A stretch of 64,000 nucleotides of DNA from the NCBI GenBank assembly GCA_017539045.1, contig JAFYHS010000018.1, positions 1 through 64,000 of the forward strand, written 5' to 3'. Below the pieces are notes generated by a model. It worked only from the letters and a program-made list of their open reading frames with translations, ran no database searches and was not told where the DNA came from. The DNA is from Bacteroidales bacterium (GTDB lineage Bacteria; Bacteroidota; Bacteroidia; Bacteroidales; F082). The position numbers and the translations under genes are program-made. Shown piece by piece: positions 19,799 through 63,654 of the stretch; the first letter of the stretch is position 1, and the number at the start of each line of letters is the position of its first letter.

Positions 19799-19850
19799 AG
19801 ACGTAAATTCTCTTTTCTTCAAACGCGGAATACGCGATAATATTATCGGA

Positions 19851-19858
19851 CAAAGGTA
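19851..19858 (-). promoter_or_regulatory. -7 box for the PorE-like/purM operon
   Basis: TACCTTTG on the minus strand, 53 bp before the ATG at 19798. Confidence 0.6.
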
Positions 19859-19893
19859 CAACAATTCCGTGAATCGGAGAAGGATTTGGCAAT

Positions 19894-19979: not shown

Positions 19980-21614
19980 CTATTCCTTCACCCACTTACC
20001 CGTTTCTGCCTTGGTGTGGCCCTTGTAAACCTTCCACACATACACTCCATTTGCCCAAGCTGCCGCATCAATCGGCGTCACATCCTCCGTGATGGCTTGT
20101 CTGTGGACGAGTTTTCCGTTCGTGTCGTACACCTCCACTCTTGCGTTGTGCAAGCCTGTGCGGATGTTCAGCACATCTTTTCCAGGGTTGGGGTAGGCGA
20201 TGGCCACCTTCAGACCATTGGCATGCGCCTCCTCGATGCCGACGAAGGCCTCGGCTGGAAACTTGGTGACAGTGTTCCACCTATTTCTTGTATTGTTCAT
20301 GTCTTTTGAGTTGGACGTGAGCAGTATTCCGCCGTCTGACAGTGCCACAATGTCGTATGCTTCGCTATGGATGTCGACATCCCCGTTGATATCGTAATAT
20401 AAGGTACTGATGGTGTCCATGCTTTCATCGAGCCGTTCTATCATCATCCACGAGTCGAGGCAGTCACATAATCCGAGATTCAGAGTATATGCAATATAGA
20501 TGTCTCCAGCCTTGTCTAATGCTATGCCCTTAAAACTGGCAGTATGATCCCAATTATAAAATCTTTTGATATGGTGAACGGGATGCATATAACCCCATAA
20601 TCCGTCTGTGTCGTTGTACTCGTAAAGGTGTATGTCATAAGTGTTCTTGGTCTCATCGCTTACCGTAGAAGAAACGTACGTGGTGTTGTGTGGGCTTCGA
20701 AGGATGGATGGATATATGTAACTATAATTATCAGCGGCATTGGTGTGGGAGATGCGTCGGATGAGGGTGACGTTGAAATCGCGGTCGAGGTAGATGACGT
20801 TGCCTCCCCCGCCGAAGATGGAACAACTTAAGTCGTACATCACATATGTGCTGTCGTTGATTTTTACCATGTTCCCACTTTGGGTGGCCCAGCAGAAAGG
20901 AATCACATCGCCACCCGTCGAAGCGCAGGGATAATCGACCTTGGTGATAAGATTGCCGTCGAAGTCCATCCTGAAGAAGACTATGGTGTCTTTGGCGATG
21001 TCCTCGTGGCCGAAGCTGATGGCCTTGACATAGTTGCCCACGATGTTGCCATCTTCGTCCACAAAGGCCGAAAAGGGATGAATGTAGCCCGACCGCCTAT
21101 TCTTCGAACGTTCCCACCACTCGTTGCCCCTCATCTCGAAAGTGTCGACGATGAACCGATGTTCCATGCTCCGCACGATGTTTAGACTGTCGTCAAGCTC
21201 GTAAAGTCCAAGGATGGCGAAGTCGGGGATGGTGTCGAAGTTCATGAAATAGTTGGGCGACCTGTAGTCGTGGTCGGGATTGTAGGTCGTCAGCGTGAAC
21301 AGTTCGCCATCGTCGTTCTGAAGAAAATGCATTTGACTGCTCCAGAAGGCGGGTTTGTAATGCTCGGTGCGTATTATCAACTCACCTTCTGGCGAAAGCA
21401 GCGAGAGTCCCACCCGTGTGGAGATAGACGTCCATGGCTCAACGATTTCTTTCACGACGATGTTGTGTGTTAAAGGAATCTCGTATGTGTTATGATATTG
21501 GTATAGCACCGTGTCCTTTATGTAGGAATGTGAGTACTCCCACTCCTGCGCGAAAGCCTTGGCCCCCCAAAGCAGGGCCAAGGCGAATGGTAAAACGATT
21601 CTGTTATATGACAT
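19980..21614 (-). CDS. T9SS type A sorting-domain surface protein (cassette 1)
   Basis: 544-residue exported protein with a signal peptide (RIVLPFALALLWGAKAFA). The body (about 30-460) has repeated beta-strand motifs of the form GDIYIAYTL and GGILLTSNSKDMNN, compatible with a beta-propeller. The C-terminal sorting domain (VAIAYPNPGKDVLNI ... GKWVKE) starts near residue 470. It resembles in plan the two cassette 2 proteins at 42296 and 44274, with the same motif types in the same order, but sequence similarity is low outside the sorting domain. It lies 25 bp downstream of the lipoprotein gene, so it is probably the last gene of that operon. Function unknown; an adhesin or glycan-binding role is conceivable but not shown. 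Confidence 0.82.
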   Translation of the reverse strand: MSYNRIVLPFALALLWGAKAFAQEWEYSHSYIKDTVLYQYHNTYEIPLTHNIVVKEIVEPWTSISTRVGLSLLSPEGELIIRTEHYKPAFWSSQMHFLQNDDGELFTLTTYNPDHDYRSPNYFMNFDTIPDFAILGLYELDDSLNIVRSMEHRFIVDTFEMRGNEWWERSKNRRSGYIHPFSAFVDEDGNIVGNYVKAISFGHEDIAKDTIVFFRMDFDGNLITKVDYPCASTGGDVIPFCWATQSGNMVKINDSTYVMYDLSCSIFGGGGNVIYLDRDFNVTLIRRISHTNAADNYSYIYPSILRSPHNTTYVSSTVSDETKNTYDIHLYEYNDTDGLWGYMHPVHHIKRFYNWDHTASFKGIALDKAGDIYIAYTLNLGLCDCLDSWMMIERLDESMDTISTLYYDINGDVDIHSEAYDIVALSDGGILLTSNSKDMNNTRNRWNTVTKFPAEAFVGIEEAHANGLKVAIAYPNPGKDVLNIRTGLHNARVEVYDTNGKLVHRQAITEDVTPIDAAAWANGVYVWKVYKGHTKAETGKWVKE

Positions 21615-21639
21615 TGTTTAGGTCTTAGTCAAATAAAGA

Positions 21640-22692
21640 TTAAATGCCTGGGGTGTACCAATAATAGTCGGAATAAATAACCTTAAGATTATGAATCTTT
21701 GATACGGTGTCGTGAACCTCTGGAATTGTCACATCCTGTACCTCGGCCTCAAAGTAGGGAATATTTGATAGGTAGAAAATATGATAGTGAAGAGGCGCAT
21801 TTTCATCGACTACCTCGGCATTGATGTTGGCCCAATAGCAATTTAGCTCTTCCCACGAAATGCATGGTTCATATGAGTCAGGGCCGAAGTAATAGAACAG
21901 CCAATGATCCGTGCAAGGGGTGGTGACAGTAGGATCCCAAAAAAACCAATTCGAATACTGTTTAGGATAGATGGTATATGTGACATAATGTGTACTCGTG
22001 AGCATCAATTCCATGCCTTCTTGTGGTGGGGTGCGGTCGAAAGTGAAACACTCGGTCAGCTTGTCAGCCGCATCCAATTGGCTGTTGAAAAGACCAGGAT
22101 CGCACAGGCCTAAATTCCTACCCCATATCCAATTGGCGCCTTGAGAAAAAGGATAGTCACTTGTCTGTTCGTCTTCAGAAACTTCGCCTCTTGTAAAAAC
22201 GATATCGATGTTGTCAAAGTCCTTTGCGTTGGATTCGGGCATGACGATGCTGAATAGGCTCGGCACGTTTCTGCCGTCGTTGGCGGAGGCCATGCAGCTT
22301 TCCAAAGCCGCTTCAAAGGCGTTGTAGGTTGCCACCACGTCCGTTTCGTTCACGTTACCCTCACCGTCGACGGCAGGCATAGCCACGTGCAATGTGTCAA
22401 GCACCGTGTTTACGCAGTAGGTCATGTGTTCGCTGTGTTCGTAGTTTGTCGTCAGGTCGAGGATTTGCCGCATCTCCTCGACTGTCATGCAGCCGCCAGT
22501 CTTCGCACCCGCGTTGACAGCGTCGCGAAGTTCCTTGAAAGATTTGATTCTGTCCAGCATAGCCTGCACTTCACTGCTGTTTACCCTTCTTGCCGTTTCC
22601 TCGTTCTTTTCTTTCTTGCAGCCCACAAGGATGGCCGCAGTTGTTGCGACAGCCACTGCTGCCACGACCAATGTCTTTGTAAATCTTTTCAT
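21640..22692 (-). CDS. Hypothetical lipoprotein (cassette 1)
   Basis: 350-residue protein with an N-terminal lipoprotein signal (MKRFTKTLVVAAVAVATTAAILVGCKKEK, lipid cysteine at residue 25). I do not recognise the family. Residues 35-130 are helical and mention-worthy for the phrase TGGCMTVEEMRQILDLTTNYEH; the second half is rich in Trp, Tyr and Asp (for example GANWIWGRNLGLCDPGLFN and YSNWFFWDPTVTTPCTDHW), typical of extracellular beta proteins. Four cysteines in the C-terminal half could form disulfides. It sits between a DUF3244 gene (33 bp upstream) and a T9SS cargo gene (25 bp downstream), so it is part of the same transcription unit. Confidence 0.7.
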   Translation of the reverse strand: MKRFTKTLVVAAVAVATTAAILVGCKKEKNEETARRVNSSEVQAMLDRIKSFKELRDAVNAGAKTGGCMTVEEMRQILDLTTNYEHSEHMTYCVNTVLDTLHVAMPAVDGEGNVNETDVVATYNAFEAALESCMASANDGRNVPSLFSIVMPESNAKDFDNIDIVFTRGEVSEDEQTSDYPFSQGANWIWGRNLGLCDPGLFNSQLDAADKLTECFTFDRTPPQEGMELMLTSTHYVTYTIYPKQYSNWFFWDPTVTTPCTDHWLFYYFGPDSYEPCISWEELNCYWANINAEVVDENAPLHYHIFYLSNIPYFEAEVQDVTIPEVHDTVSKIHNLKVIYSDYYWYTPGI

Positions 22693-22724
22693 TTTCTGTT
22701 GTTTTAGGTTTGTGCTAGTTGTTG

Positions 22725-23111
22725 TTACTCTGTTACTGTAAATTCACCATAGTACTCGTCCCCGTTAGGTAAGGTGAAGTTGACGATGTAATCTCCCGCG
22801 AGGGGGATGTAGATGCTCATACCGTTAGGCGTTTGCGTTGAGAGGCAGTCCACCGAGCCGCCCGTGTCGGTGGTCACTTCCACCTGCACTTGGCCGAGGT
22901 TCTCCGTGAAGGACACCGCGAGATAGTGGCTGTCGATAGAAGCTTGGATAGAGGAACCTTTGTCCACCCCGCTGTAAGGTATGCGAGTAATGATAATAAT
23001 AGGATGCCCATCTTTTTTATCATAAACATGCTTCGAGACGTTGTTGGAGTAGCAGAAACCCGCCATAAATAATAGGCAGCTTAAAAGGAAGTAGTGTTTG
23101 ACTTTTGACAT
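22725..23111 (-). CDS. Small secreted DUF3244 protein (cassette 1)
   Basis: 128-residue exported protein. After a signal peptide (KHYFLLSCLLFMAGFCYS) the mature part is a single beta-rich DUF3244 domain, with IQASIDSHYLAVSFTENLGQVQVEVTTDTGG and a closing AGDYIVNFTLPNGDEYYGEFTV. The cassette 2 paralogue at 45921-46301 shares about half of these positions, including ENLGQV, PNGM/I and GEFTVT. The start at 23111 gives the signal peptide. A -7 box at 23271-23278 and two ATTGCAAAT repeats at 23187-23205 lie in the 177-bp gap upstream, giving a long leader. DUF3244 has no assigned function. Confidence 0.82.
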   Translation of the reverse strand: MSKVKHYFLLSCLLFMAGFCYSNNVSKHVYDKKDGHPIIIITRIPYSGVDKGSSIQASIDSHYLAVSFTENLGQVQVEVTTDTGGSVDCLSTQTPNGMSIYIPLAGDYIVNFTLPNGDEYYGEFTVTE

Positions 23112-23186
23112 GATTTTGTGGTTTAGTTTTCGACGATAAAAGTAGGCCGTTTCCAAATCCTGTCAATGTTTTTGGCCGAGTTGTTT

Positions 23187-23205
23187 ATTGCAAATTATTG
23201 CAAAT
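23187..23205. promoter_or_regulatory. Paired ATTGCAAAT direct repeats upstream of the DUF3244 gene
   Basis: Two exact 9-nt copies start 10 bp apart (23187 and 23197), one helical turn, inside an AT-rich leader. This is the spacing expected for a dimeric regulator on one DNA face. It lies downstream of the proposed -7 box, so any binding would block elongation or loading. Role is inference. Confidence 0.35.
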
Positions 23206-23270
23206 AATATGCTAAATAATTATAAATCAAGCATTTGCTACACCATTATTTCTTCACGATTTTCTGTCTC

Positions 23271-23278
23271 CAAAAATA
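23271..23278 (-). promoter_or_regulatory. -7 box for the DUF3244/lipoprotein/T9SS operon
   Basis: TATTTTTG on the minus strand, just after the stop of the TPR regulator gene and 160 bp before the DUF3244 start. Confidence 0.45.
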
Positions 23279-23288
23279 ACTGAAAAAC

Positions 23289-25172
23289 TCATTCTTGTGC
23301 CTCTAATTCAAACAACAGCCGCCGCAAATGCATCCTCGGTTCCACGCAATTCATCATCTCTTTCAGCCGTTTGGTTCGTTTCCAAATGGTGGAATAGTCC
23401 TTCTGCAACAATACGGCTATCTGCTGTTCAGAGAGACCTATCAAATAGAATCGACAGACATCTATATCAGCTATCCTAATTGTTGGATACTTGGCTTTTA
23501 TTATCGAATCAAAACCAGGACAATGCCTCATGACGGCCTTGGCCAAGGCTTGTTTCTCTTTTGGGGTAATGGACAATGCCGCATATTCTTCGGGCTTGAT
23601 GGTGGTAAGAATGTCTGTTTTGCCAAATCGTTGCAGTAGATCCATGCAGATTTCTTCATTTAGCAACGCTTCATATTCCTTTTCCTTGGCTTTTGCATGC
23701 ATGGATTCCTGTTGCTTCGCAAGTTTTTGGTTCTCGTTTTGCAACTGGTTGTTGATGTCGCGGAGGTCGTTCAATTCGGCTGCATGCAACATTCCCTCTG
23801 ATTTTAGCATCTCCTCTGTTGCCCGAATTCTTATCTTGTGCCTACGTCTAAGTAGTAAGACCGTGACCGCAACAAACAAAAGCACAAGCAGCACCGAGAA
23901 CAAGAAAAACCTCTGCCGCAACCTTGCTTTTTCCAATTCGTTCTGAATCTTAGCCTTCCTCTGGTGATAGTTCTGATACAAGTTGGAGAGTTGCGATTGC
24001 GCGGTCTTCTGTTCATAATTCGAAACCGCATATTGCGACAAGAAATTGGCGTATTCTTCTGCCTTGCCTTCATTGCCAATGTTTCTATAAACATCGCGCA
24101 GACTTTCCGCCATTTGAATTTGGACAGCCACGTCCTTACTGGCCCGATACGCCGAATCAAGATACGGCAAAGCGGCATCGTATTCTTGTTCCATGAAATA
24201 AATGGAGCCAATGACCATATACCTTGTATTCTTTTCAGCCTCGTCAATTGCCTGCATTGCAACATGGTGTAATTTATCTATAGCCTTGCCTTGGTCGTTT
24301 GTTAGCTGATAGTCGAGAAAAGCCATGCTTGACAAGATGTCGCGATAATAAGAATTGTTGGTATCTGGCAGAGCATTTAAGGCCAACCTATAATAAACGA
24401 AGGCCGTGTCTTTCTTTTCCAAAGCATCAAATTGGGTTCCCATTCGGTAATAAGCGTTTGCTATCCCGTAAATGGAAGTAGGTTCTATCTTGCTGAAAAC
24501 GACTGATTTGCCATAACAATCAATGGCCGACTCCATCATGAACTGTCCTGAGAACAACTCCCCAAGCCGATTGAAAGTGTAGGCCATGAACCTTGCCCGA
24601 TGTCCCGTCAATGCCTTTTCATCGAAACGCCCCTCCATCGTTTCCAAGGCCTTCAGGTATTCGGCGCAGGCTTCCACTACGCTGTCGTGCTCGTAGTAGC
24701 CCACACCATCAATATAATGGGCGCGGGCATCCAAGAATACGAGATTGGGGGTGAGGTCTTTTTTAATCCCCCCGGCCCATTTAAAAGGGGGAGTCGGCCG
24801 AATGAGGCTGTCGAAATAGGCCACAGCTTGCTGCAATTCCGCGCGGTTGGTTTGGGCGTAGTCGTTCTTGTAGAGCAATTCGGCAGTCAGCAGGTGGGCG
24901 TAATGGTTATCAAACGTTTCATTTGTAGAGACGTAGCGCGCTATGTCTCTACCATCGTCGTCCAAATAATCCCACAATACGGCCAAGGCACTGTCGGGCT
25001 GCTGCCACATCAGGCTGTCGAGGGCAGACAAGACAGGGGACAGCCCTTCAACCCTTCGATGGGCCTCACGGACCGCAAGTTCGGAGACCGCTGGCTCAGG
25101 CGCTTCCGCTGCCCGATGACAGGCAGCCCAGGCCAGCAACAAGGCCAATCCTATGATAAGCGGACGTTTCAT
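23289..25172 (-). CDS. Membrane-anchored TPR sensor with C-terminal HTH-like domain (cassette 1)
   Basis: 627-residue predicted membrane-bound regulator. N-terminal export signal with a cysteine near residue 17 (LLLAWAAC); TPR region to about residue 390; one transmembrane helix (FFLFSVLLVLLFVAVTVLLL, about 418-441); coiled coil (about 450-510); and a C-terminal region with LIGLSEQQIAVLLQKDYSTIWKRTKRL, a LuxR-like helix-turn-helix pattern. TPRs are thus periplasmic and the HTH cytoplasmic. Its -7 box at 25178-25185 ends 5 bp before the ATG, predicting a leaderless message. Compared with the 46407 paralogue it has two in-frame insertions that coincide with REP-like palindromes (24765-24791 and 24925-24952). 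Target genes are unproven; the adjacent DUF3244 operon is the obvious candidate. Confidence 0.82.
   Translation of the reverse strand: MKRPLIIGLALLLAWAACHRAAEAPEPAVSELAVREAHRRVEGLSPVLSALDSLMWQQPDSALAVLWDYLDDDGRDIARYVSTNETFDNHYAHLLTAELLYKNDYAQTNRAELQQAVAYFDSLIRPTPPFKWAGGIKKDLTPNLVFLDARAHYIDGVGYYEHDSVVEACAEYLKALETMEGRFDEKALTGHRARFMAYTFNRLGELFSGQFMMESAIDCYGKSVVFSKIEPTSIYGIANAYYRMGTQFDALEKKDTAFVYYRLALNALPDTNNSYYRDILSSMAFLDYQLTNDQGKAIDKLHHVAMQAIDEAEKNTRYMVIGSIYFMEQEYDAALPYLDSAYRASKDVAVQIQMAESLRDVYRNIGNEGKAEEYANFLSQYAVSNYEQKTAQSQLSNLYQNYHQRKAKIQNELEKARLRQRFFLFSVLLVLLFVAVTVLLLRRRHKIRIRATEEMLKSEGMLHAAELNDLRDINNQLQNENQKLAKQQESMHAKAKEKEYEALLNEEICMDLLQRFGKTDILTTIKPEEYAALSITPKEKQALAKAVMRHCPGFDSIIKAKYPTIRIADIDVCRFYLIGLSEQQIAVLLQKDYSTIWKRTKRLKEMMNCVEPRMHLRRLLFELEAQE
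24765..24791. repeat. REP-like CCCCC/GGGGG palindrome inside the TPR regulator gene
   Basis: The same family as the intergenic copies at 37365-37393 and 39792-39827: on the minus strand CCCCCTTTTAAA, then GGGGGGATT. It is in frame and encodes about ten residues (PPFKWAGGIK) missing from the paralogue at 46407. Confidence 0.65.
24925..24952. repeat. 28-bp palindrome (GTAGAGAC family) inside the TPR regulator gene
   Basis: The arms GTAGAGACGTAGCG and CGCTATGTCTCTAC pair at 13 of 14 positions without a spacer. It encodes GRDIARYVST around residues 74-83 and coincides with an insertion relative to the paralogue. The motif type is common as intergenic REP in Bacteroidota. Confidence 0.65.
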
Positions 25173-25258: not shown

Positions 25259-28200
25259 TCATTTCTTCTTTGAATCGTTTTCTTCTTCGATGACCTTGTC
25301 TTTCTTGCTGCCTTTCATCAAGACATAGGCGAAAGGCGATGACAGGAACACTGAGGAGAAGGTACCGGCCAGCACACCGACCAACAGGGCGAAGATGAAG
25401 CCGCGGATGGTGTCACCGCCGAAGATGAAGATGGCGAGCAACACGACCAAGGTCGAACCCGAGGTGTTGAACGAACGGGTCAAGGTGCTGTTAACGGCAC
25501 TGTTCATATTGGCCTTCCAGGAGCTCTTCGGATGCAAACCGACATTCTCACGGATACGGTCGAAGATAACCACCGTAGCGTTGATGGAGTAACCGATGAC
25601 GGTCAGCACAGCAGCGATGAAGCTCTGGTCGACTTCCATGGTGAAGGGCAGCACGTTGTAGAACAAGGAGTACATACCCAACACGATGATGGTATCTTGC
25701 GTCAGGGCCATGATGGAAGCCACACCATATTGCCATTTCTTGAATCGGATGGCGATGTAGACGAACATCAGAGCCAAGGCCACGATGATAGCCCAGATGG
25801 ACTTGCGGGTGACGTCGCTGGCGATGGTGGCGCCCACTTTCTGGGTGCTCAGGATGCCCACGGTCTCGTCTTCCGAAGAGAATTGGCTCATCTCAAGGTT
25901 ATTGTTGTAAAGACCCTTCAAACCGTCGTAGAGGATGGTTTGGATGACTGAGTCGACGGCGGGGCTGTCGTTGTTGATCAAGAACTTGGTCGTGATCTTC
26001 ACCTGACCGTTGGTACCATAGGTCTTCACTTCAGGAGCTGACCAGTCGTCAACCTCTTGGTCTTCTCTCATGGCGAGAGCACTGTGGATGGCGTTCTTGT
26101 CGAAGTCGGCGGTGCTCAGAGCCTCACGCACGTCTTCAACCTTGATGCTCGGGTTGTCGAATTGGACAACGTAGTTACGGCCGCCCTTGAAGTCGATACC
26201 GAGGTTCAAACGACGGATGCCAAGCGAACCCAAGCTGATGACCAAGAACACGATGCAGATGATGAACGAGGTCTTGCGCATGCCGATGAAGTCAAAGTGC
26301 TTATCCTGCAAGAAGTTGCGCGTCCAAGCAGTGCTGAAGGTGATGTTTCTTTCCTTGTCCAGCATACGTTCGAAGATCAGTCTCGAGATGAAGATGGACG
26401 TGGCCAGAGAGGTCAGGATACCGATGCAGAGGGTGACGGCGAAGCTGTGGACAGGACCCGTACCCAAAATGATCAGGATGATACCGGTGATCAAGGTGGT
26501 GACGTTACCGTCGATAATGGCGGAGTAAGCGTTCTTGTAACCATCGGCGATGGCGAGCTTCAAGCCCTTACCGGCCTTGATCTCTTCCTTGATACGCTCG
26601 AAGATAATCACGTTCGAGTCAACGGCCATACCCAAGGTCAACACGATACCGGCGATACCAGGCAGGGTCAGCACCGAGCCGAGGCAAGCCAGCACACCGA
26701 ACAGGAAGAACACGTTGACCAACAGGGCGATATCGGCAACGAGACCAGCCTTGTTGTAGAAGAACACCATGTAAACCAGCACGAGGAGGAAGGCGAACAC
26801 CATCGACCACATACCCTTTTGCACGGCTTCCTTACCGAGTGAAGGACCAACGACCTGCTCCTCAAGGATTCTTGCAGGGGCGGGCAACTTACCGGCCTTC
26901 AGGATGTTGGCCAAGTCTTGAGCCTCTTCGATGGTCATGCCGCCACCAGAGATGGAGGAACGACCGTTCGGGATTTCGCCGTTGACGACAGGGTAGGAGT
27001 AGACGTAATCGTCAAGGACGATGGCGATCTGCTTGCCGATGTTCTCGCCGGTGAGGCGCTTCCAGGCTTTGGCACCTTCGGGGTTCATCTGGATGGTGAC
27101 CTCCACTTGGTTGCTCTGACCGTAGTCCTGACGGGCGTCGGTGATGACTTCACCACCGAGGGCGCATTTGTTTTCGCGCGACATCTTCAGGGCGACGAGG
27201 TCGAGCACTTCGATGTTCTCGCCGTTCTGGCCAGGATAGGTCTCGGGCTTCACCGTCCAAGCGAGCTTGAGGTTGCGGGGGAAGATGCCCTGCACCTCGG
27301 CCAGCATCTTGTTGATGGCGGCGGTGTCTTTCACCTGGGCGATACCCACACGGGCTGAACCGCCGTTGATGGGCTGCAGTTTGGCATACAAAGGATGGTT
27401 CTCAGCGAACTGATCCATGCTTTCGTCTTCGGCGACTTGCTCTTCCTCTTGGTTCTCGGCAAGTTGGTCGAGGAGGCTGCTGTCAGTGCTGTCGGCCTCG
27501 GCCACTTCGGCACCTTCTTCGGCGATCACCTGGGTGTTGTCTTCAACGAGGCTGTCGTCGACAACCACAGGGGCTTCAGTCTCGTCCAACGAGCTCTTGG
27601 CCTTTCTGGTCTCAGCCAGCTTGGCGTCAGCTTCATTGAAGAACTGCTGCACGTCGGCAAAGTTGTAGGTCTCCCAGAATTCGAGTTGTGCCGTGCCCTG
27701 GAGGAGCTTACGCACACGCTTCGGGTCCTTGATACCGGGAAGTTCGACGAGGATACGGCCCGAGTTCTCCATCTTTTGGATGTTGGGCTGAGCCACACCG
27801 AAACGGTCGATACGGGTTCCCAGGATCTGGTAAGAACGGTCGATGGCGCCATCGCATTCGCTCTTCAAGACCTTCAGCACGTCTTCGTTGCTGGAATTGA
27901 TGTTGATGCCTTTGTCCTTGAATTCATACAGGAAGATGGAGACAAGACTGGCGTTGGGATCGGTCTCTTTGAAAGCTTCGCCAAACAGGGTGACGAAGTC
28001 GCCCTTGCTCTGCTCCTGCCTAATGGTGGCCAATTCCATGGCTTTCAAGAAGGTGGGGTCTTGCGAGTTGCCCGACAAGGCGTTGACGATGTCTTTCACC
28101 GAGACTTCCAGGGTGACGTTCATACCACCCTTCAAGTCCAAACCCAAGTTGATTTCTTTTTCCTTAGCATCGCGATAGGTGAACTTCTTGAAACCCAAGT

Positions 28201-41227: not shown

Positions 41228-42253
41228 TTATTCTTCTCGTCCGCCTATGAAAACGAATCCCCATCGGGGCATGGCCACCAGTTCGGGGACGGTCTCTCCG
41301 GCAAGCCTTATGTTGCCTACGGCGGTCATCCTTGACGAGAACACCCCATAGCCTCCATCGATGAGCGAAAACTCAGGATCGCCGGCACTGAAGCCGTAGG
41401 TGGCGTCGTTGTGGTAGATGTATTGCATCAATTTCTCTCCGCCTGCAGTGATGTCGACTTCGACAGGATAGTCGCTGATGAAACGGCTGACCCCTTGGAT
41501 GAGGCTGTCGTCGCCGACAAACTCTTTCAGCTTCGCGTAAAAATTCTCGGGCCGATATGTGAAGACATAGCAATCGCCGTCCATGTGTTTGGAGAGGTAC
41601 TCGTCGGTATAGGTGCCGATATCCCACGAGAAGGTGCGGGGTATGGTGTCGCCATCGGGAGTGCGTTGCTCTTTGAAGGTGAACGCCATGGTGACTTGAT
41701 AGATGCTGGCGTTGGCGGCGGGCCGAAACAGGAAGGGACGGTTGGTGCCAAAGTACTCCTTCGAGAAGTTCACGCCCAGGCTTTGCACACCGAACCCGCC
41801 GTTGCCCACCATATCGGTCTCGGTGGTCAGGACGCGGTCGGGTAGGACGGCTTTGAGGCGGTAATGGTATTGCGCTCCCGATCCATTGTGGTTGAGGGGC
41901 TCGGCGGTATAGTACAGCTTTTGCGAGGGTGCATAGAACAAGCCTTCCTGTTTGTTGTGGATGGTGATGGTGTCGAGAACGATCTCGCGGACGGAGTCGC
42001 CGTTGCGGTATTCGACGAGACGGACGTCGAGTCGGCCAGGGTAGTTGCTCGAGTCGGGGTTGGCTGCAGCCAGATAGGTGTCGTCGGGAGCGTAGAAGGC
42101 ACGGGTGATCTTGACGTAGTTGGTGTCGGCGCGGGCGTCGAGCAGACCATAGACGATGGGCATCTGCTTGTAATCGGCAAAGATGTCGATATCGTTTGAG
42201 CAGGCGGTCGAGAGCGCCGCAACGACTAACAAGATAAACCATCGTCTTTTCAT
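41228..42253 (-). CDS. DUF4249-like lipoprotein (cassette 2)
   Basis: 341-residue exported lipoprotein. The signal MKRRWFILLVVAALSTAC gives a lipid cysteine at residue 18. The body has the DUF4249 pattern: ADYKQMPIVYGLLDARADTNYVKITRAF near the N terminus, then YHYRLKAVLPDRVLTTETDM and many beta strands. DUF4249 lipoproteins often accompany TonB-dependent receptors; no such receptor is in this window. It follows the T9SS gene at 42296 by 42 bp and is convergent with mpl, so it is the last gene of cassette 2. Function unknown. Confidence 0.78.
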   Translation of the reverse strand: MKRRWFILLVVAALSTACSNDIDIFADYKQMPIVYGLLDARADTNYVKITRAFYAPDDTYLAAANPDSSNYPGRLDVRLVEYRNGDSVREIVLDTITIHNKQEGLFYAPSQKLYYTAEPLNHNGSGAQYHYRLKAVLPDRVLTTETDMVGNGGFGVQSLGVNFSKEYFGTNRPFLFRPAANASIYQVTMAFTFKEQRTPDGDTIPRTFSWDIGTYTDEYLSKHMDGDCYVFTYRPENFYAKLKEFVGDDSLIQGVSRFISDYPVEVDITAGGEKLMQYIYHNDATYGFSAGDPEFSLIDGGYGVFSSRMTAVGNIRLAGETVPELVAMPRWGFVFIGGREE

Positions 42254-42295
42254 CTTTCCACTTTTCCCCTGTTTAGATTTCCTTTCGTGGTAGCT

Positions 42296-43852
42296 CTACT
42301 GTTTCACCACCTTATCGGTAAATGTCTTCCCATCCTCCATCGTGACCTTCATCACGTATTGCCCTGGGGCGAGGCTTTGCAGCTCAATGTTTTCCAAGCC
42401 TTGGCTTTGTTTGCTCACAAGTCGCCCTTGCAGGTCGAAGAGTTCGATGCAGGCGGGCTGTACGTCGGGCGAGTACTGCAGTTGGAGCGCGTCTTGGACG
42501 GGGTTGGGATAATAGGCGTAAGGGCGGATGAAGGTTTCACCTTCATGGATTTCGTCATAGCCGTCATCAGATACAAAGAAATGAAAAATACCAACACCAG
42601 CTTGATTGAGGTTAATTGCATAGCCTACGATGAACATGCCTATCTCACTGCCATCATCATCGTTCAATATGCTAGAATACACACTCGTACTGGGGTCGTA
42701 GCCGTAGGATTGTTCATAACAATAGCGTCTCCAGATCAGATTCAAGTTCCGGTCTAACTTTGCCGCCGTCATGGTTGGCTTGTTGTATGGCGTGGTTTCC
42801 CTAAATACAATATATATGTCGCCATTGGAAGCCTTTTGGAAACCCAAGCAACGCGCTTCTGTTGATGGTCCAGGTTGATCGTTGAAATGAATCAAGGCCT
42901 TCTGTTGCATGGTGCGAAGGTCGTAACGAGCTACAGCCAAACCCGTTTCACGATTGTCATTTACGAATGCAGAGTCTCTAGTATATGGCGCAGCGACCAG
43001 CAAATCGCCTTCATCAGAGATGACGAAAGTGCCAGAACTGTTGGAATTGCCGAACCAGAACTCCTCCCTAACTTGAATATAGGTAGAATCAAATTCATAG
43101 ATATTGTCTTCCAATATTCTATTAACAACAAGATAGTTAGTCACATTAAACAGCGAGTCGATGACATAGAGCATAAGATTCCCGTCTTCATTTGAAGTCC
43201 ATTGGAAATAACTACTAGGTTGTGAATCGAACTCGCCCATGGTTGTCAGGAAATTCTGGGTTTGGGGCAACACGGTGCTATGTTTCAGCGTGCCGTCAAG
43301 GCCAACACGGGATATGTGGCAAGTATAACTGCTGTCAAGGTTTTCGGTGTAGTATTTCAGGATCAAATCGTTCCGTCTATCCATCAAGATGCTGTTGGAA
43401 TAGCCAAGGGCGAACGTGTCGCAGAGTTGTACTACGACATCCTCGGCAGGGTTAATGTTGAGGTCGTAGTCAGGAAAGTGCGAAATGCGCACGGCGGTGC
43501 CGTTATTGGCGTCGGATTCGACGTTGACACGAAGGTTTCCATCGCCGAGGGGGTTCCGGGCAAGCATATAGAAGGGTGGATTGCTGTTGGCGATAAACAA
43601 CGAGTCGGTATATTGCAACGCAACGGGTGACGCTTTATAGAAATTGTTTCCTACGACAACGGCATTATTGCCTTCGACATTGGCCACCAATATGTTGCTA
43701 ACAATGTCGCCATTGTGTTGCTGCACGGCGTTCACAATATTGAAGACAGGATAACTTGGATGATAGGATGGGATAAATCCCATGCTCACTTCTTGTGCTT
43801 GAGCATAGATTGTCGCAAGGACCAAGAGCCATGAAAATATGTGTTTTCTCAT
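42296..43852 (-). CDS. T9SS type A sorting-domain surface protein (cassette 2, distal copy)
   Basis: 518 residues, with a signal peptide (RKHIFSWLLVLATIYAQA) and a body of beta repeats (about 25-430; examples NDLILKYYTENLDSS and SNGDIYIVFRETT). Its sorting domain (RPYAYYPNPVQDALQLQYSP ... KVVKQ) is almost identical to that of the 44274 protein. At DNA level 108 bp (42335-42442) are identical to 44313-44420 although the upstream bodies differ. I chose the ATG at 43852 over the longer frame to 43924 because a -7 box lies at 43872-43879. The DUF4249 gene follows. Confidence 0.82.
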   Translation of the reverse strand: MRKHIFSWLLVLATIYAQAQEVSMGFIPSYHPSYPVFNIVNAVQQHNGDIVSNILVANVEGNNAVVVGNNFYKASPVALQYTDSLFIANSNPPFYMLARNPLGDGNLRVNVESDANNGTAVRISHFPDYDLNINPAEDVVVQLCDTFALGYSNSILMDRRNDLILKYYTENLDSSYTCHISRVGLDGTLKHSTVLPQTQNFLTTMGEFDSQPSSYFQWTSNEDGNLMLYVIDSLFNVTNYLVVNRILEDNIYEFDSTYIQVREEFWFGNSNSSGTFVISDEGDLLVAAPYTRDSAFVNDNRETGLAVARYDLRTMQQKALIHFNDQPGPSTEARCLGFQKASNGDIYIVFRETTPYNKPTMTAAKLDRNLNLIWRRYCYEQSYGYDPSTSVYSSILNDDDGSEIGMFIVGYAINLNQAGVGIFHFFVSDDGYDEIHEGETFIRPYAYYPNPVQDALQLQYSPDVQPACIELFDLQGRLVSKQSQGLENIELQSLAPGQYVMKVTMEDGKTFTDKVVKQ

Positions 43853-43871
43853 ATGCTTTATTTTTTTTCTA

Positions 43872-43879
43872 CAAAAATA
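43872..43879 (-). promoter_or_regulatory. -7 box for the distal cassette 2 surface protein
   Basis: TATTTTTG on the minus strand, 20 bp before the ATG at 43852. Confidence 0.6.
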
Positions 43880-43961
43880 AACAATATTTTGTAACCACCT
43901 TGGGTGTGTTCGTGTTTTTTTCAAAGAAACCGTACTGACAACAAAGAAAGAGCATGGGATT

Positions 43962-44039
43962 TTTCATGAAAGCCTCTTTAATGGCATTAATCGTCTCCCT
44001 GTCCTTAGGGAGGGTAAAGGTGATGATGTAATCTCCCGT
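43962..44039 (-). pseudogene. DUF3244 gene remnant
   Basis: On the minus strand the stretch 44004-44036 encodes GDYIITFTLPK, matching the conserved end of the DUF3244 proteins (AGDYIVNFTLPNG at 22725 and AGDYIVTFTLSNG at 45921). Upstream the sequence runs straight into a REP-like palindrome (44041-44063) and downstream it decays (ETINAIKEAFMKN). No intact start or signal peptide remains. An orphan -7 box (TATCTTTG, 44132-44139) may be the old promoter. It suggests cassette 2 once had a second DUF3244 gene before its second surface-protein gene. Confidence 0.6.
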
Positions 44040-44040
44040 T

Positions 44041-44222: not shown

Positions 44223-44273
44223 AACTGGCTTCGTCGAATCTTCGATTTCCCTGAGCAAAGCGAAGGGGAATCA

Positions 44274-45737
44274 CTATTCCTTCACCACCTTGTCCGTGTA
44301 GGTCTTCCCGTTCTCCATCGTGACCTTCATCACGTATTGCCCTGGGGCGAGGCTTTGCAGCTCAATGTTTTCCAAGCCTTGGCTTTGTTTGCTCACAAGT
44401 CGCCCTTGCAGGTCGAAGAGCTCAATGCAGGTGGGCTGTACGTCGGGCGAGTACTGCAGGTGGAGTTGGTCTTGGGCCGGGTTGGGATAATAGGCGTAGG
44501 GGCGGATGGGGCTTTCTTGCTCCGTCGTGCCGTCATAGTCGTCGTTGACAATGATGTAAAAGGCGTCGCAAATTTGATTGTTGACGAGATTAATACCTAT
44601 AATTGCCACCTTGTTATCCTTAAGGACCAACATCTTACCATCCCAGAGATACCCCGATTCCAAGCAATAGCGTTCCCAAATGACATTCAGGTCGCTGTCC
44701 ATCTTAACCAAGGATATATGTCCGTTAAGATGGTTCGTGGCATAGGCCAGATAGAGGTTACCGTCCTTGCCCCAATCCATGCCTATGGTGGCTGTTTTAC
44801 CGTAAGGAACCGAAGGGAACTTTTTTAGCAGGGTGAGTTCGCCGTCGTATCTTAGTATAGCCAGCCCTTTGTCATTCACTTGGGGGTTCATGGATTCATA
44901 CTGCGAGGCGAATAGGAAACTGCCGTCGTTTTTGGCGCAAACCCCGATTGAGCCATTGGTATTGGTGGAAAAACGTAGCCAAAGCGGGGCTGTGATTTGG
45001 TTAGGCAGGACGACGCTTTCCGTAATGTTGAAAAGCGAGTCCAGTATGTAGCAATGGGTGAGATCCTGGCCGTTGGCGTAGTGGCCATAATAGCAGTAGG
45101 TCAATGGCGACTCCCTGACAATGAAAGGCCCGTGGTCGGAACCTTCGTCAAGGGTCATGTTGGTAAGCAAGTTATGGTGCTTGATTTCGCCGTCGGGTCC
45201 GATTCGGATGAAGTTGCGGTCGAAGGAGTGGTAGTTGTAATAGGCCACGACGAGGTCGCCGTTGCGGTCGATGAGCATTCCCGGAAGGCCGCAGTTTTGT
45301 AGGGAGTCATCGTCGGTGACATGAACTTCGATTTCGTCGGGCTCGAAGACCAGGTGGTTGTCGAAGCGACGCATGGTCACTTTACAGCCTCCGTTTGCCG
45401 AGTCGGCCTTGTACTCTGCGAAGATGCCCTTGTTGTAGTTATTCGGGTCTTTTGCGCTGATGCTCCACGCGCCTGTTGAAGTGTAGTGCACCACTGAATC
45501 GGCCAAGGCAAGTTCGGGGTAACGGTTCAACTTTTGGATTTTAACCCTGCAAGTCTCTGGACCGATAAAGACGCTGCTGACGAGGCTGCCGTCATGCATT
45601 TCCATAAGCGATTCGATGAAGGGGGTACCATTGCCCAAATAGTGGTGCGGAATGGAATCAATGGTCTGAGCCTGGAGGCCAAGACTGCAGCATAGGGCAG
45701 CCAAGGCAACAATCGTTTTAAAGTGTTTTGTATTCAT
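44274..45737 (-). CDS. T9SS type A sorting-domain surface protein (cassette 2, proximal copy)
   Basis: 487 residues with a signal peptide (HFKTIVALAALCCSLGLQA). The body (about 25-400) carries strands such as NGDLVVAYYNYHSFDRNFIRI and KDGNLYLAYATNHLNGHISLVKMDSDLNVIWERYC, likely a beta-propeller. The second phrase aligns with the 42296 protein (SNGDIYIVF ... LDRNLNLIWRRYC), so the two are paralogues. The sorting domain is nearly identical to the distal copy. ATG at 45737 chosen for the signal peptide and the -7 box at 45768-45775. Function unknown. Confidence 0.82.
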   Translation of the reverse strand: MNTKHFKTIVALAALCCSLGLQAQTIDSIPHHYLGNGTPFIESLMEMHDGSLVSSVFIGPETCRVKIQKLNRYPELALADSVVHYTSTGAWSISAKDPNNYNKGIFAEYKADSANGGCKVTMRRFDNHLVFEPDEIEVHVTDDDSLQNCGLPGMLIDRNGDLVVAYYNYHSFDRNFIRIGPDGEIKHHNLLTNMTLDEGSDHGPFIVRESPLTYCYYGHYANGQDLTHCYILDSLFNITESVVLPNQITAPLWLRFSTNTNGSIGVCAKNDGSFLFASQYESMNPQVNDKGLAILRYDGELTLLKKFPSVPYGKTATIGMDWGKDGNLYLAYATNHLNGHISLVKMDSDLNVIWERYCLESGYLWDGKMLVLKDNKVAIIGINLVNNQICDAFYIIVNDDYDGTTEQESPIRPYAYYPNPAQDQLHLQYSPDVQPTCIELFDLQGRLVSKQSQGLENIELQSLAPGQYVMKVTMENGKTYTDKVVKE

Positions 45738-45767
45738 GTTGCATGTCTTTTTTGATGTTTGTACCTG

Positions 45768-45920: not shown

Positions 45921-46301
45921 TTAATCTGTTACCGTAAACTCACCAGCATAAATATCCCCATTAGAGAGCGTAAATGTGACAATGTAATCCCCTGCATTGG
46001 GGATGTAGAACTGGATGCCATTAGGGGTAATGCAGGAATTAGCCTGAACATAACCGCCCGTGGAAGTAGTGACCTCAATGTCCACTTGACCGAGGTTTTC
46101 GGTGAAAACAACGGTGAGATAGTGGCCGTTGATGGAGGCTTGGATGGTGTAGCCTTTAGGCACACTTTGAACGTGTGCAACTTTTACTTGTATGGCACTA
46201 TATCCATCTTTAGAAATGATTGTAGCGGCACTACACCATACTATTGGCAATAATAAGCCTAATAGCAAAAATAGTTTTTTTTGAAGTTTGTAATTTGACA
46301 T
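45921..46301 (-). CDS. Small secreted DUF3244 protein (cassette 2)
   Basis: 126-residue exported protein: signal peptide (KKLFLLLGLLLPIVWCSA), then one DUF3244 domain (YTIQASINGHYLTVVFTENLGQVDIEVTTSTGG, closing AGDYIVTFTLSNGDIYAGEFTVTD). It is a clear paralogue of 22725-23111. The promoter just upstream has both -33 and -7 elements with a perfect inverted repeat between them, so it is likely tightly regulated. The regulator candidate is the TPR/HTH protein encoded immediately upstream. The surface-protein gene at 44274 has its own promoter downstream. Confidence 0.83.
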   Translation of the reverse strand: MSNYKLQKKLFLLLGLLLPIVWCSAATIISKDGYSAIQVKVAHVQSVPKGYTIQASINGHYLTVVFTENLGQVDIEVTTSTGGYVQANSCITPNGIQFYIPNAGDYIVTFTLSNGDIYAGEFTVTD

Positions 46302-46326: not shown

Positions 46327-46358
46327 CAAAACTACAATTGACAAAATCCTTTTGTCAA
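46327..46358 (-). promoter_or_regulatory. DUF3244 promoter with embedded operator-like palindrome
   Basis: -7 box TAGTTTTG at 46327-46334 and -33 TTG at 46356-46358, with 21 bp between. The perfect inverted repeat TTGACAAAA-TCC-TTTTGTCAA (46338-46358) fills this spacer, so a bound protein would compete with RNA polymerase. Confidence 0.6.
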
Positions 46359-46406
46359 GAAATTACAGATTTGGTTTATTTGGATTTTTAGTTAAGAACT
46401 TGATTG

Positions 46407-48203
46407 TCAATTAATCAAAATCTCATTAAGTATAACTGCTATTTTGTCTTCCTTTTGGAATATATGCTGCAGACGCTTTTCTCTTTCCCACACGGTTCTA
46501 TAGGAAAGCTGTGTCATAACAGCGATCTGAACATTATCCAATCCAAGAAGGCATAAATTGCAATAAAAGAGATCCTTTTCCTTCAATTCAGGGTATAGTT
46601 GCTTCAATTTCTTAAATAGCACGCTGTAATGTCGTGTAGCAGCCTCTTTAAGCTGCGCTTTTTGTGCATCGCTGAGGGCAATGTCTTTGTAAGCGGATAC
46701 AGGGACAGAAGATTTGATAGGTTTATTCTTGTCGTTACAAACAGTAAGTATGTGCTGGCAAATAGGTTCATCAGCATAGTTTTCTACTACGATTTGCCCT
46801 TTAATAGATGATATTTGAGGGTCTCTGGTTTTTTTCTTATCCTGCTCTCTTAATGCAGCATTGCTTCTTTTCAACCTTCCAGCCAATGCCGCTTGCTGTA
46901 TCTTATGAGCATGACGTTCAACTTCCATCTGAACTTCAAGCTTTTTCCTGCTTCGTTTGTTCTTTCGATATAAGATAACGATAATCACTAATATGATCAA
47001 CAATCCCACAAGGGCCAATAGGCCTTGGGTTGCATGTTTCATTATTTCACGATGATGTCGTTGCTCCAAATCCTTTTGCTCGTATTTATTATGCAACTCT
47101 ATTAATTGAGATTTCAATCCACTATTATTCTCTTCTTGGTTGGCAAAAGGAAGCAAAAACTCAGCATATTTAGACACGTCACACATAAAATACTCTGCTT
47201 TGCATATCTCGACAAGCCATTCTGCTGCCTGCTTTTTTGCACCAATTATTTCGCTTTGGTCAAAAACATTATTCAAATAAATCCAAGCCGAATCGAATTC
47301 TCTTTCGTGATAATAGATTTCTCCAATAGTTAAGCAACGCGATGCGTATTCTTGTTTGCTTTCAGATTGTGATAATATAGAGAACAATTGATGCAATGAT
47401 GGTTTTATGTCATTGCCCCTTTTATAAGATAAAAAAGCTAGATGTGCCATAATGTCTCTATATGACAAACTATTTGTGTCAGACAAAACCATCACTCCTT
47501 CTTTATAATAGTACTCGGCGCTATCATAATTATGCAAAATATCAAAATGTAATCCGATTTCATCAAAAGACCATGCAATATGTTGAGGAAAGGCTCCGTA
47601 TTTGTAAAAATAGTGTAAAGATAGTTTGCCGAAAAAGATGGCTTGTTCATGTAAATACATGTCGGAAAACAGTCCCGTTAAATGCGTGTATGTCAAAGCA
47701 ATAAACTTTGCTTTTTCTTCTACCAGCTCCTTTTCCTCAAAATGCTCCTCCATCACCTCCAATGCCTTCAGGTATTCCTTGCAGGCCTCCACCACGCTAT
47801 CGCGCTCATAATACCCTACACCATTAATATAATGGCCGCGGGCATCTAAAAATGCATTCCTTTTCTGTATGTTCGCTCCATGCAAATCCACAATTGAATC
47901 GAAATAACCCACCGCCTTAAGCAGCTCCCCACGGTTGCTTTGCCCCCAATCGTTCTTATAAAGCAATTCCGAGATCAGCAGCTGGCAGTAATGCCCATTA
48001 AAAGCATCGAGGCTGTCGGCCGCTGGGCTTGCCACAAACCGCTGTAGCCACGCCAGAGCACTGTCGGGCTGCCGCCACATCAGGCTGTCGATGGCGCACA
48101 ATTCTGATGACGGCGTTTCGACAGGCTCAACGACCTTCACCTTTGAAGTACAAGAGGCTATGGTCAACAACAAGTATCCTATGATGAGAAACTTGGCTTT
48201 CAT
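46407..48203 (-). CDS. Membrane-anchored TPR sensor with C-terminal HTH-like domain (cassette 2)
   Basis: 598-residue paralogue of the cassette 1 regulator. Lipoprotein-type signal ending in TIASC (Cys18), TPR array to about residue 370 (well conserved block VGYYERDSVVEACKEYLKALEVMEE), one transmembrane helix (LLALVGLLIILVIIVILY, about 391-411), coiled coil rich in Lys/Arg/Gln (about 412-460) and the C-terminal CNLCLLGLDNVQIAVMTQLSYRTVWEREKRL, a LuxR-type HTH pattern. Residues 23-31 (KVVEPVETP) come from half of a REP-like element. The -7 box at 48209-48216 ends 5 bp before the ATG, so the message is predicted to be leaderless. The gene is clearly AT-richer than its flanks. Confidence 0.82.
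   Translation of the reverse strand: MKAKFLIIGYLLLTIASCTSKVKVVEPVETPSSELCAIDSLMWRQPDSALAWLQRFVASPAADSLDAFNGHYCQLLISELLYKNDWGQSNRGELLKAVGYFDSIVDLHGANIQKRNAFLDARGHYINGVGYYERDSVVEACKEYLKALEVMEEHFEEKELVEEKAKFIALTYTHLTGLFSDMYLHEQAIFFGKLSLHYFYKYGAFPQHIAWSFDEIGLHFDILHNYDSAEYYYKEGVMVLSDTNSLSYRDIMAHLAFLSYKRGNDIKPSLHQLFSILSQSESKQEYASRCLTIGEIYYHEREFDSAWIYLNNVFDQSEIIGAKKQAAEWLVEICKAEYFMCDVSKYAEFLLPFANQEENNSGLKSQLIELHNKYEQKDLEQRHHREIMKHATQGLLALVGLLIILVIIVILYRKNKRSRKKLEVQMEVERHAHKIQQAALAGRLKRSNAALREQDKKKTRDPQISSIKGQIVVENYADEPICQHILTVCNDKNKPIKSSVPVSAYKDIALSDAQKAQLKEAATRHYSVLFKKLKQLYPELKEKDLFYCNLCLLGLDNVQIAVMTQLSYRTVWEREKRLQHIFQKEDKIAVILNEILIN
48112..48137. repeat. Half REP-like element inside the cassette 2 regulator gene
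   Basis: GGCGTTTCGACAGGCTCAAC followed by GACCTT, identical in the core to one arm of the dnaJ-flanking elements. It is in frame, just after the lipobox. Confidence 0.75.
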
Positions 48204-61914: not shown

Positions 61915-63555
61915 ATGAAGAATGCTTACCGCGTCATATCGGCTTTGTTTTTGTCCTTGTCGGCACTCCTCTGCGCGTGCAGCAGGGAGAGACAGGCTTT
62001 TACCGAGCAGAACGCACCTCGTCATTTCCATGAGCTGCAGGCCGTAGAGGCTTTGTTGGAGACGGATCCGACCAAGGCGATGGACAGCGTGAACCGGTTG
62101 GTGGCGCTCGCTGCGGAGGCTCCTTTCTCCACTTTGGATTCCATCGAATTGCAACTGCGTCTTGTACAAGCCCAATACAAGAACCGTTGCCTCTCCGAGC
62201 AGAGTCTTGAACTGTCGTCCATCGTGGCTTTTTACGACAGCTTGGCAACGATCTATCCCGAGGATGACGACTTGCAGTATCTGCGGGCCAATGCATATTA
62301 TTATAGAGGTGCGCAGTGGACCTCTGCCAATGAAGATGTCAACGCCTTCACACATTATCTGAAGGCCTTGGAGGTGATGCACCAGCGCGAGGCATGGAAA
62401 AGCCCGTATGCCAAGCGGTTTGTCGCCTTGACATACACACGTCTGTCGGAAATCCTTTACCGTTATGGCCTACGTGATGCGGCTTTGGAGACTTGTCACA
62501 AAGCAGCATCCTATTATGAGTCGGAGGCCGATCTTGCCGCCATGTTGCGCTTCGAAGCGGCCATCTATCAGTCGCAGAAAGACTACGACAAGGCTTTGTC
62601 GTTGTATGACGACGCGCAACAACTAGTGTCGGTGGGGGATGAGCCGATACAACTATCCATCGGTGCCAAGCTCTTCGAATTACAGCAATACGATTCGGCG
62701 GTACCACATCTGCTCAGGGCTTTCGCCAATGGCGACCGGTACGCCCGGATAGACGCAGCGGCCAAGTTGGCAGAGGTCTATTGCGATAAAGACATGGGCG
62801 ACCAGGAACTGGCCTACACGCGCTATTATGTGGAGAACTCCATGATGGAGAGCCGAATGGCCTCGCGAAAGATGGAGATAGAATACCTTTACGATGACTA
62901 CAATCAACCCAAGACGGAGCCCGCGGTCCAGAAAAAGGATCATACCATGCCCGTTTTGCTGCTTTTGTTACTGCTATTGTCGGTCATTGCCATTATGGCG
63001 TTCATTATCATCCGCAACCGTAAGCGTATCAGCCACATCGAGAACAAGATCACGACCATAGAGCAGAAGCACGAACAAGAGAACGCGGATAAAGACCAGG
63101 AGATTGAACAGATTTCGCAAGCTTTGAATGACACCCGTGAACAGCTCAATGCCCAACGTGTCGATTTCGATGAGGCATGGCAGACCTTCTTGTCGTCGTC
63201 TATCGTGAACAAGATCAAGCATTCCGTTGAAGACAAGGACATCATGATCAAGAGCGTGGGCGCATATCCCAAGCTGAAGCTGAAAGAGATGGATTATATC
63301 GACTTGGTGCAGGAAACCAACCATTGTTTCCCGGATTTCTCGTCGCGTTTCCTGAAACACTATCCCGACCTCAACATCGCCGACCTGCGTCACTGCTGTC
63401 TGGGGCTTTTGGGCATGAACGACGCCGAAATTGCCGTGCTTGAAGGCATCTCCTATAGTGGGGCCAACCGTCGTACCAACAAAATCTTGTCGTCCTTGAA
63501 TGCAGGCGAGAGCCTTGAAAACGCTATGATAGAGTGTTTGAAAAAGTTGATTTAA
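61915..63555 (+). CDS. Membrane-anchored TPR sensor with C-terminal HTH-like domain (third copy)
   Basis: 546-residue paralogue, more distant than the first two. Lipoprotein-type signal (LFLSLSALLCAC, Cys near residue 20), TPR region to about residue 320 (HYLKALEVMHQREAWKSPYAKRFVALTYTRLSEIL aligns well with the other copies), a transmembrane helix (VLLLLLLLLSVIAIMAFIII, about 345-366), coiled coil (about 370-420) and the C-terminal LRHCCLGLLGMNDAEIAVLEGISYSGANRRTNKIL, again of LuxR-HTH type. It is followed by another secreted protein under its own promoter. No DUF3244 gene is visible before the window ends. Confidence 0.8.
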   Translation: MKNAYRVISALFLSLSALLCACSRERQAFTEQNAPRHFHELQAVEALLETDPTKAMDSVNRLVALAAEAPFSTLDSIELQLRLVQAQYKNRCLSEQSLELSSIVAFYDSLATIYPEDDDLQYLRANAYYYRGAQWTSANEDVNAFTHYLKALEVMHQREAWKSPYAKRFVALTYTRLSEILYRYGLRDAALETCHKAASYYESEADLAAMLRFEAAIYQSQKDYDKALSLYDDAQQLVSVGDEPIQLSIGAKLFELQQYDSAVPHLLRAFANGDRYARIDAAAKLAEVYCDKDMGDQELAYTRYYVENSMMESRMASRKMEIEYLYDDYNQPKTEPAVQKKDHTMPVLLLLLLLLSVIAIMAFIIIRNRKRISHIENKITTIEQKHEQENADKDQEIEQISQALNDTREQLNAQRVDFDEAWQTFLSSSIVNKIKHSVEDKDIMIKSVGAYPKLKLKEMDYIDLVQETNHCFPDFSSRFLKHYPDLNIADLRHCCLGLLGMNDAEIAVLEGISYSGANRRTNKILSSLNAGESLENAMIECLKKLI

Positions 63556-63622
63556 AATATTGATATTGTGTTGAATATACGAAATTTGTTGATATTTGTT
63601 GAGAAAATGGAGATGAAAAAGA

Positions 63623-63654
63623 TTGACAACACTGTGTTTAGGCAACTACTTTTG
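63623..63654 (+). promoter_or_regulatory. Promoter of the last gene (-33 and -7)
   Basis: TTG at 63623-63625, 21 bp, TACTTTTG at 63647-63654; the ATG at 63679 is 25 bp further. Confidence 0.55.

Follow-up and report, generated by a model that had tools for sequence, protein, structure and literature searches.

Introduction

The closest described counterpart of the genes studied here is the BT_3442/BT_3441 pair of Bacteroides thetaiotaomicron, in which the genes for a tetratricopeptide repeat (TPR) protein and one DUF3244-type protein open a putative operon of mostly lipoproteins, BT_3441 being called a homolog of BVU_0276 (PDB 3d33); the available part of that paper describes BT_3442 just as a multi-domain TPR protein and gives no helix-turn-helix (HTH), operator or regulatory role (PMC2954219). 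Elsewhere, in the accessible portion of the source, DUF3244 genes are merely listed in iron-response tables (PMC10434189), and for the DUF3244 proteins of known structure (3d33, 3sd2, 4g5a) no function was found in print, subscription journals being largely outside the coverage. Here we analyse 64,000 nucleotides of Bacteroidales bacterium (GenBank GCA_017539045.1, contig JAFYHS010000018.1, positions 1 to 64,000; the whole stretch is called the window), where a TPR protein with one predicted transmembrane (TM) helix and a C-terminal HTH is followed by genes for a DUF3244 protein, a lipoprotein and a surface protein of the type IX secretion system, T9SS (cassette 1, 19980..25172). We suggest that the TPR-TM-HTH protein is probably a membrane-anchored activator of its own cassette, on which DUF3244 may feed back.

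An earlier note on this DNA knew of no described function for the set, and within the same literature coverage, read in part, we saw a homologous pair mentioned once in passing, with no function given. In the part of the paper available, the BT_3442/BT_3441 operon carries MACPF proteins, unlike the cassettes here (PMC2954219). Regulator 1 of the window resembles the BT3442 family NF053779 at 5.8e-12 and 45.1 bits, far under the 940-bit cut-off, which places it outside that family, and no match to NF053779 was obtained in its own genome at E 1e-60.

Results

The window holds three loci of this kind, with the following features.

Cassette 1
23289..25172, minus strand: regulator 1 (TPR-TM-HTH), with lipoprotein signal, TPR superhelix, TM, coiled coil and LuxR/NarL-type HTH
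23186..23205, minus strand: putative operator 1, ATTTGCAATA twice, an exact 10-bp direct repeat (repeat scan)
23135..23166, minus strand: putative promoter 1, -33 TTGACA at 23161-23166 and -7 TACTTTTATC at 23135-23144
22725..23111, minus strand: DUF3244 protein 1, signal peptide and Ig-like domain
21640..22692, minus strand: cassette 1 lipoprotein, no Pfam match at E 1
19980..21614, minus strand: cassette 1 T9SS type A sorting-domain surface protein (TIGR04183, 1.5e-10)

Cassette 2
46407..48203, minus strand: regulator 2, 34% identity to regulator 1, TM 394-412
46366..46384, minus strand: putative operator 2, CCAAAT repeat of period 9 (repeat scan)
46327..46358, minus strand: putative promoter 2, -33 TTGACA and -7 TAGTTTTG
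45921..46301, minus strand: DUF3244 protein 2 (PF11589, 5.3e-8)
44274..45737, minus strand: T9SS sorting-domain protein (PF18962, 7.6e-12)
42296..43852, minus strand: T9SS sorting-domain protein (PF18962, 4.1e-11)
41228..42253, minus strand: lipoprotein closing the cassette, no Pfam match at E 0.05

Third regulator locus
61915..63555, plus strand: regulator 3, no adjacent DUF3244 (DUF6377 at 2.9e-7, under the cut-off)
63584..63602, plus strand: putative operator 3, ATTTGTTGAT direct repeat of period 10 (repeat scan)
63623..63654, plus strand: putative promoter 3, -33 TTGACA and -7 TACTTTTG

All four minus-strand genes of cassette 1 were found as previously described (open reading frames, Pfam and NCBIfam scans), and the reading of the first product as a TPR protein with one TM helix and a LuxR-like C-terminal HTH was borne out by topology and fold prediction and by profile matches. 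In the model of regulator 1 the TPR superhelix comprises helices 46-379, an unbroken helix (383-459) passes through the membrane with the TM at 423-441, and a coiled coil and the C-terminal HTH complete the protein. The TPR fold seen in the model is also matched by PF00515 (8e-7). The C-terminal region, which the earlier note had allowed might prove not to be an HTH, is LuxR/NarL-type by model and profile: among solved DNA-binding domains of that type a 20-row profile found VraR (1.3e-4) and EsrB (1.9e-3), and Pfam GerE was not matched by regulator 1 at E 1, nor by regulators 2 and 3 at 0.05. The regulator is thus predicted to be a lipoprotein with periplasmic TPR, single TM helix and cytoplasmic LuxR/NarL-type HTH. 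SusR-like or hybrid two-component regulators carry kinase, receiver or propeller/Y_Y_Y domains; these were absent from the Pfam scans of regulators 1-3, in agreement with the earlier view that domain content speaks for neither class. Some regulators of the family (L011:8064-10538; L052, L054) have an extra C-terminal stretch, seemingly a second winged-helix domain.

Cassette 2 (41228-48203) begins with two genes of the same kinds as cassette 1 and adds T9SS cargo. Regulator 1, searched against its own assembly, matched 15 stretches spread over 12 loci. Three of these loci lie in the window, and the other nine include one on contig C41 (L009, G000), which duplicates the window around cassette 1 and carries regulator 1 at 100%, so that the assembly is partly redundant. 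Four further regulator loci were reached from lone DUF3244 matches, giving 15 in the genome with C41 excluded. All nine lone DUF3244 genes of this genome come after a regulator, and regulators without DUF3244 are followed by exported proteins, mostly T9SS-tailed.

The gap between regulator and cargo often holds a promoter of Bacteroidota type, with -33 and -7 elements as in promoters 1-3, preceded by a direct repeat, usually of period 10 bp. From 83 regulator-DUF3244 gaps of at least 80 nt, 54 had a scorable promoter match; their mean repeat score was 6.70 vs 3.72 (sd 0.15) in shuffles, and 29 of the 54 scored at least 7, where 1.2 were expected and the maximum across 300 shuffles was 4. When the 350 nt downstream of regulators were scored, using the best of several promoter matches for real and shuffled sequence equally, a score of at least 7 was reached in 17/28 loci without DUF3244 and 19/42 with it (0.1 and 0.15 expected), and upstream of regulators the repeat was found in 1/67 only. 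Period 10 accounts for 35 of the 47 distinct repeats scoring at least 7; from the repeat end to the -33 TTG the distance is 8-13 bp in 37 (exactly 10 in 21), 14-17 in 6 and 19-21 in 4, operators 1 and 3 belonging to this farthest class. This placement beside -33 would suit an activator. In family f60 (14 loci, with L253, L270 and L273 omitted) taken together with f26 (one locus) the repeat likewise exceeds chance (mean 7.60 vs 4.84, sd 0.27), the strong ones having period 11.

Operator 1 is the sole site in the genome within 2 mismatches besides the C41 duplicate (19 of its 20 bases searched), and operator 2, weak as a repeat taken alone (p 0.39, dinucleotide shuffle), is likewise the sole site within 2 mismatches. 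A wider regulon for these two operators was considered and rejected, the duplicate contig holding the only other copy within that limit.

The repeat sequence matches within a cassette and differs across cassettes, and the regulator sequence predicts it. Among 40 regulators with period-10 operators, positions X1 and X3 of the recognition helix motif QRAY-X1-TVx-X3-R ranked first and second of 561 columns as predictors of the operator core, and they were again first and second of 556 columns in the 32 regulators left after near-copy removal. A CGT core goes with T..D in 12/12 cases, in two distinct flanking contexts (L013/L203/L223 and the L168 group), CGA with N..E in 7/7, CAT with P, S or A at X1 in 11/11, GAT with P..H in 2/2 and CGC with R..D in 3/4. 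The core labels are imperfect, CTA sites being entered as CCA and one CAT site as TAC; an earlier, cruder labelling returned the same top two columns by normalised score. Given cassette-specific repeats and their prediction from the recognition helix, the most fitting reading of the regulator is a transmembrane protein that activates its own cassette. The one-protein transmembrane system for secreted-protein genes proposed in the earlier note is supported by the identity of the HTH and by covariation of the recognition helix with the repeat in the cassette promoter.

The cargo varies. In 51 cassettes with downstream genes, the first three of these genes add up to 123, of which 114 match a simple export-signal pattern; a T9SS tail is present in 39 of the 51. 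The cargo falls into many clusters that vary between cassettes, the cluster of the cassette 1 lipoprotein (21640..22692) supplying the first cargo gene in 14/51.

A lone DUF3244 gene adjoins a regulator in 97 of the 98 testable cases inspected, from six Bacteroidales families. In the same genus, the lone-DUF3244 profile finds a match at E 1e-10 in 55 of 60 genomes; 64 distinct matches were inspected among at least about 150 listed (29 chosen automatically, the remainder by hand from strong and weak matches), for 62 of these the sequence extends far enough on the relevant side to judge, and a regulator neighbours DUF3244 in all 62, divergently in three. In the family of G262, taken as Bacteroidaceae from its BT3442 match, the regulator stands beside 16 of 17 testable genes, the exception (L267) being kept in the count. 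Family f105 gave 6/6, f108 2/2, f26 1/1 and f20 1/1 (divergent), and the nine of nine in the window's own genome complete the total; 41 genomes of f60 were sampled. The count omits long-ORF PF11589 matches and L064, L284, L285 and L302 (T9SS-tail proteins by their ends), the 86-residue open frame L299, which has no regulator alongside, contig ends (L128, L143, L260), the C41 duplicate, the doubly fetched L153, L155, L162, L164 and L165, and six second DUF3244 genes within cassettes.

From the regulator side, 79 loci found independently of DUF3244 have this gene next in 42, a T9SS-tail gene within 5 kb and no DUF3244 in 26, neither in 2, and a contig end in 9. The neighbourhood enrichment of DUF3244 and T9SS genes, whose absence would have told against the earlier proposal, is therefore present from both sides (97/98 pairing; 42 and 26 of 79 loci). 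On a tree of 62 regulators the presence of DUF3244 switches 13-16 times vs 20.1 in shuffles (23/500 as low). The DNA of 8 of the 26 loci without DUF3244 was inspected for remnants, and these eight (L167, L170, L173, L174, L175, L176, L201 and, doubtfully, L192) have a promoter and then a DUF3244-like start with signal peptide, truncated or fused into the next gene. DUF3244 is frequently lost, yet rarely present without the regulator.

Several DUF3244 genes deserve separate mention. A second DUF3244-like gene, often a predicted lipoprotein, lies a few genes downstream at L060:9583-9990, L133, L147, L158, L161 and L162; the gene at L057:5077-5491 is apparently frameshifted past its signal peptide; and at L272 a regulator fragment still adjoins DUF3244, near an ORF resembling a transposase-related gene.

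Both window DUF3244 proteins match PF11589 (25.5 and 33.2 bits, cut-off 25). Fold comparison gives DUF3244 the Ig-like fold of 3d33; sequence searches against solved structures returned nothing at E 1, so that the link to 3d33 comes from fold. DUF3244 is thus modelled as an exported Ig-like domain, a fold that T9SS sorting domains share; in the fold search, unrelated domains matched those sorting domains in score or surpassed them (VirB9 8.2, 4g59 8.1). Of the profiles for the T9SS type A sorting domain (the C-terminal domain of cargo), PF18962 matched neither window DUF3244 protein and TIGR04183 did not match DUF3244 protein 1. Homology of DUF3244 with T9SS tails was considered and, profile-profile comparison reaching only E 0.022 with a probability of 2.2%, is not claimed.

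The two halves of DUF3244 behave differently. Over 42 pairs, the distance correlation of the DUF3244 N-half with the TPR is 0.64, vs 0.31 between TPR and HTH of the same protein, and the C-half has no link to the HTH given the TPR (0.01). In a subfamily of 34 pairs the N-half correlates with regulator residues 175-415 at r 0.74, with the HTH at 0.34 and with TPR 25-165 at 0.10 (Mantel p 0.001; bootstrap differences above 0 in 1000/1000). Because the HTH is encoded between the TPR half and DUF3244, plain linkage would predict the opposite pattern. C-half identity is 0.70 within genomes (24 pairs) vs 0.59 between them (879 pairs; 0/500 permutations), and N-half identity 0.36 vs 0.34. In several pairs of cassettes from a single genome, DNA identity is high over the beginning of the regulator gene and over the 3' half of DUF3244, and lower in between. 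We read both proteins as probably composed of constant parts and specificity parts. At L058 and L059, contigs of the window's own genome break within DUF3244 genes, the 3' halves being 87% identical over 235 bp up to the contig ends.

Two neighbours of cassette 1 may be added. SecDF (25259-28429), encoded on the same strand as regulator 1, is its immediate upstream neighbour at a distance of 86 bp, and a T9SS PorE-like OmpA/TPR gene (17342-19864) comes after the cassette (NF052230, 577.8 bits; cut-off 600).

Discussion

Comparison across genomes supports the predicted architecture, the pairing, the putative operator and the proposed recognition code, and the regulator is very probably a private transcription regulator of its own cassette. 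In the explanation that we favour overall, with moderate confidence, it would be tethered by an N-terminal lipid and one TM helix, with its TPR superhelix in the periplasm and its HTH in the cytoplasm. A pair of HTH heads would sit on the direct repeat that immediately precedes the promoter for the next genes, and since that repeat is cassette-specific each regulator would read a private operator. DUF3244, the first product in many cassettes, may bind the membrane-proximal TPR half of its own regulator; the covariation points to it as a ligand or feedback partner of the periplasmic TPRs, whose input the earlier note had taken to be envelope state or a ligand, and for such a partnership we see roughly even chances. 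If the partnership holds, its feedback on the cassette would somewhat more probably be inhibitory, since operator, regulator and cargo persist at loci that have lost the body of DUF3244; this sign is a guess guided by such loci. Lipidation, activation over repression, two heads per site, contact between DUF3244 and TPR and the feedback sign are what we infer.

Several observations weigh against this account. By whole-gap dinucleotide shuffles only 26 of 83 repeats are singly significant at p 0.05 and 14 at 0.01, about half of the loci (34/70) have no repeat of score 7, and in f105 and f108 the repeat is at chance level (8 loci, mean 5.62 vs 5.20). Kinship inflates the covariation scores, near-copy removal being the sole correction. 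As for DUF3244, its N-half is still linked to the HTH, though less strongly, once the TPR is taken into account (0.21, p 0.002), the 8 pairs outside the subfamily show similar correlations for every region, and distance correlation does not prove contact. A C-half homogenised within genomes does not suit a fully private ligand, and the presence of DUF3244, hardly clustered on the tree with its 13-16 changes, indicates that the regulator does not depend on it.

The losses, the place of DUF3244 at the head of a run of exported proteins and the C-half common to cassettes within one genome would also fit a DUF3244 that is merely the first cargo, for example a surface-protein accessory, with no signalling to the regulator and cassette control unchanged. 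We consider this rather unlikely, as DUF3244 stays with the regulator although cargo families change, and across families with weakly similar regulators, and as its N-half tracks the membrane-proximal TPR region more than the nearer-encoded HTH. Alternatively, DUF3244 might leave the cell and pass between cells as a signal to the TPR, which would make the system a periplasmic equivalent of RRNPP quorum sensing whose ligand is a folded protein; this appears improbable, because a ligand of some 95 residues would need inward passage through the outer membrane and LGN scores higher than RRNPP receptors, with MalT and other TPR proteins close. The predicted double anchoring by N-terminal lipid and TM and the continuous helix 383-459 through the membrane might instead serve a proteolytic switch, in which cleavage within or close to the membrane frees the HTH part of the regulator; membrane-bound activators can work without release, and we regard such a switch as very unlikely.

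The membrane-anchored activator with DUF3244 feedback offers a first testable role for DUF3244, of which at least three structures are solved but no function was found in the literature covered, and would be a new class for Bacteroidales of predicted lipid-anchored transmembrane regulators whose operator code is readable from sequence. This genome alone offers fifteen such regulators as ready-made insulated switches, and the code may make it easier to predict when a given surface protein is displayed by gut Bacteroidales. More speculatively, each genome might run many parallel insulated channels, in which an anchored TPR receptor meets a polymorphic folded DUF3244 ligand, the N-half fitting the membrane-proximal TPR half of its own receptor and the recognition helix fitting the private operator, as a periplasmic RRNPP counterpart that couples surface-protein export to transcription.

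Two known designs and one family bear comparison. ToxR/CadC-type activators are single proteins with periplasmic sensor, single TM helix and cytoplasmic HTH, and the regulator here is likewise built; it differs in its reversed order (C-terminal HTH), lipoprotein signal, TPR sensor, private direct-repeat operator and DUF3244 partner gene. The RRNPP family (Rap, NprR and others), part of which has an HTH, shares with the present system the TPR superhelix and the adjacent exported partner gene. Features used for this comparison, from the available part of the source, are a TPR receptor of 250-500 residues, intracellular, with an adjacent propeptide gene (PMC10075063). Such adjacency is seen here (97/98) if DUF3244 stands for the propeptide. 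RRNPP receptors are intracellular, whereas the regulators here, two of which are 598 and 627 residues long and bear a signal sequence, have a TPR predicted to be periplasmic and lipid-anchored, then a TM helix, and a C-terminal HTH of LuxR/NarL type. The partner in RRNPP matures from a propeptide into a short peptide; DUF3244, with about 95 residues in its domain, is predicted to be folded, which may set it apart. Compared with the DUF3244 proteins of known structure, the family is here tied to a regulator.

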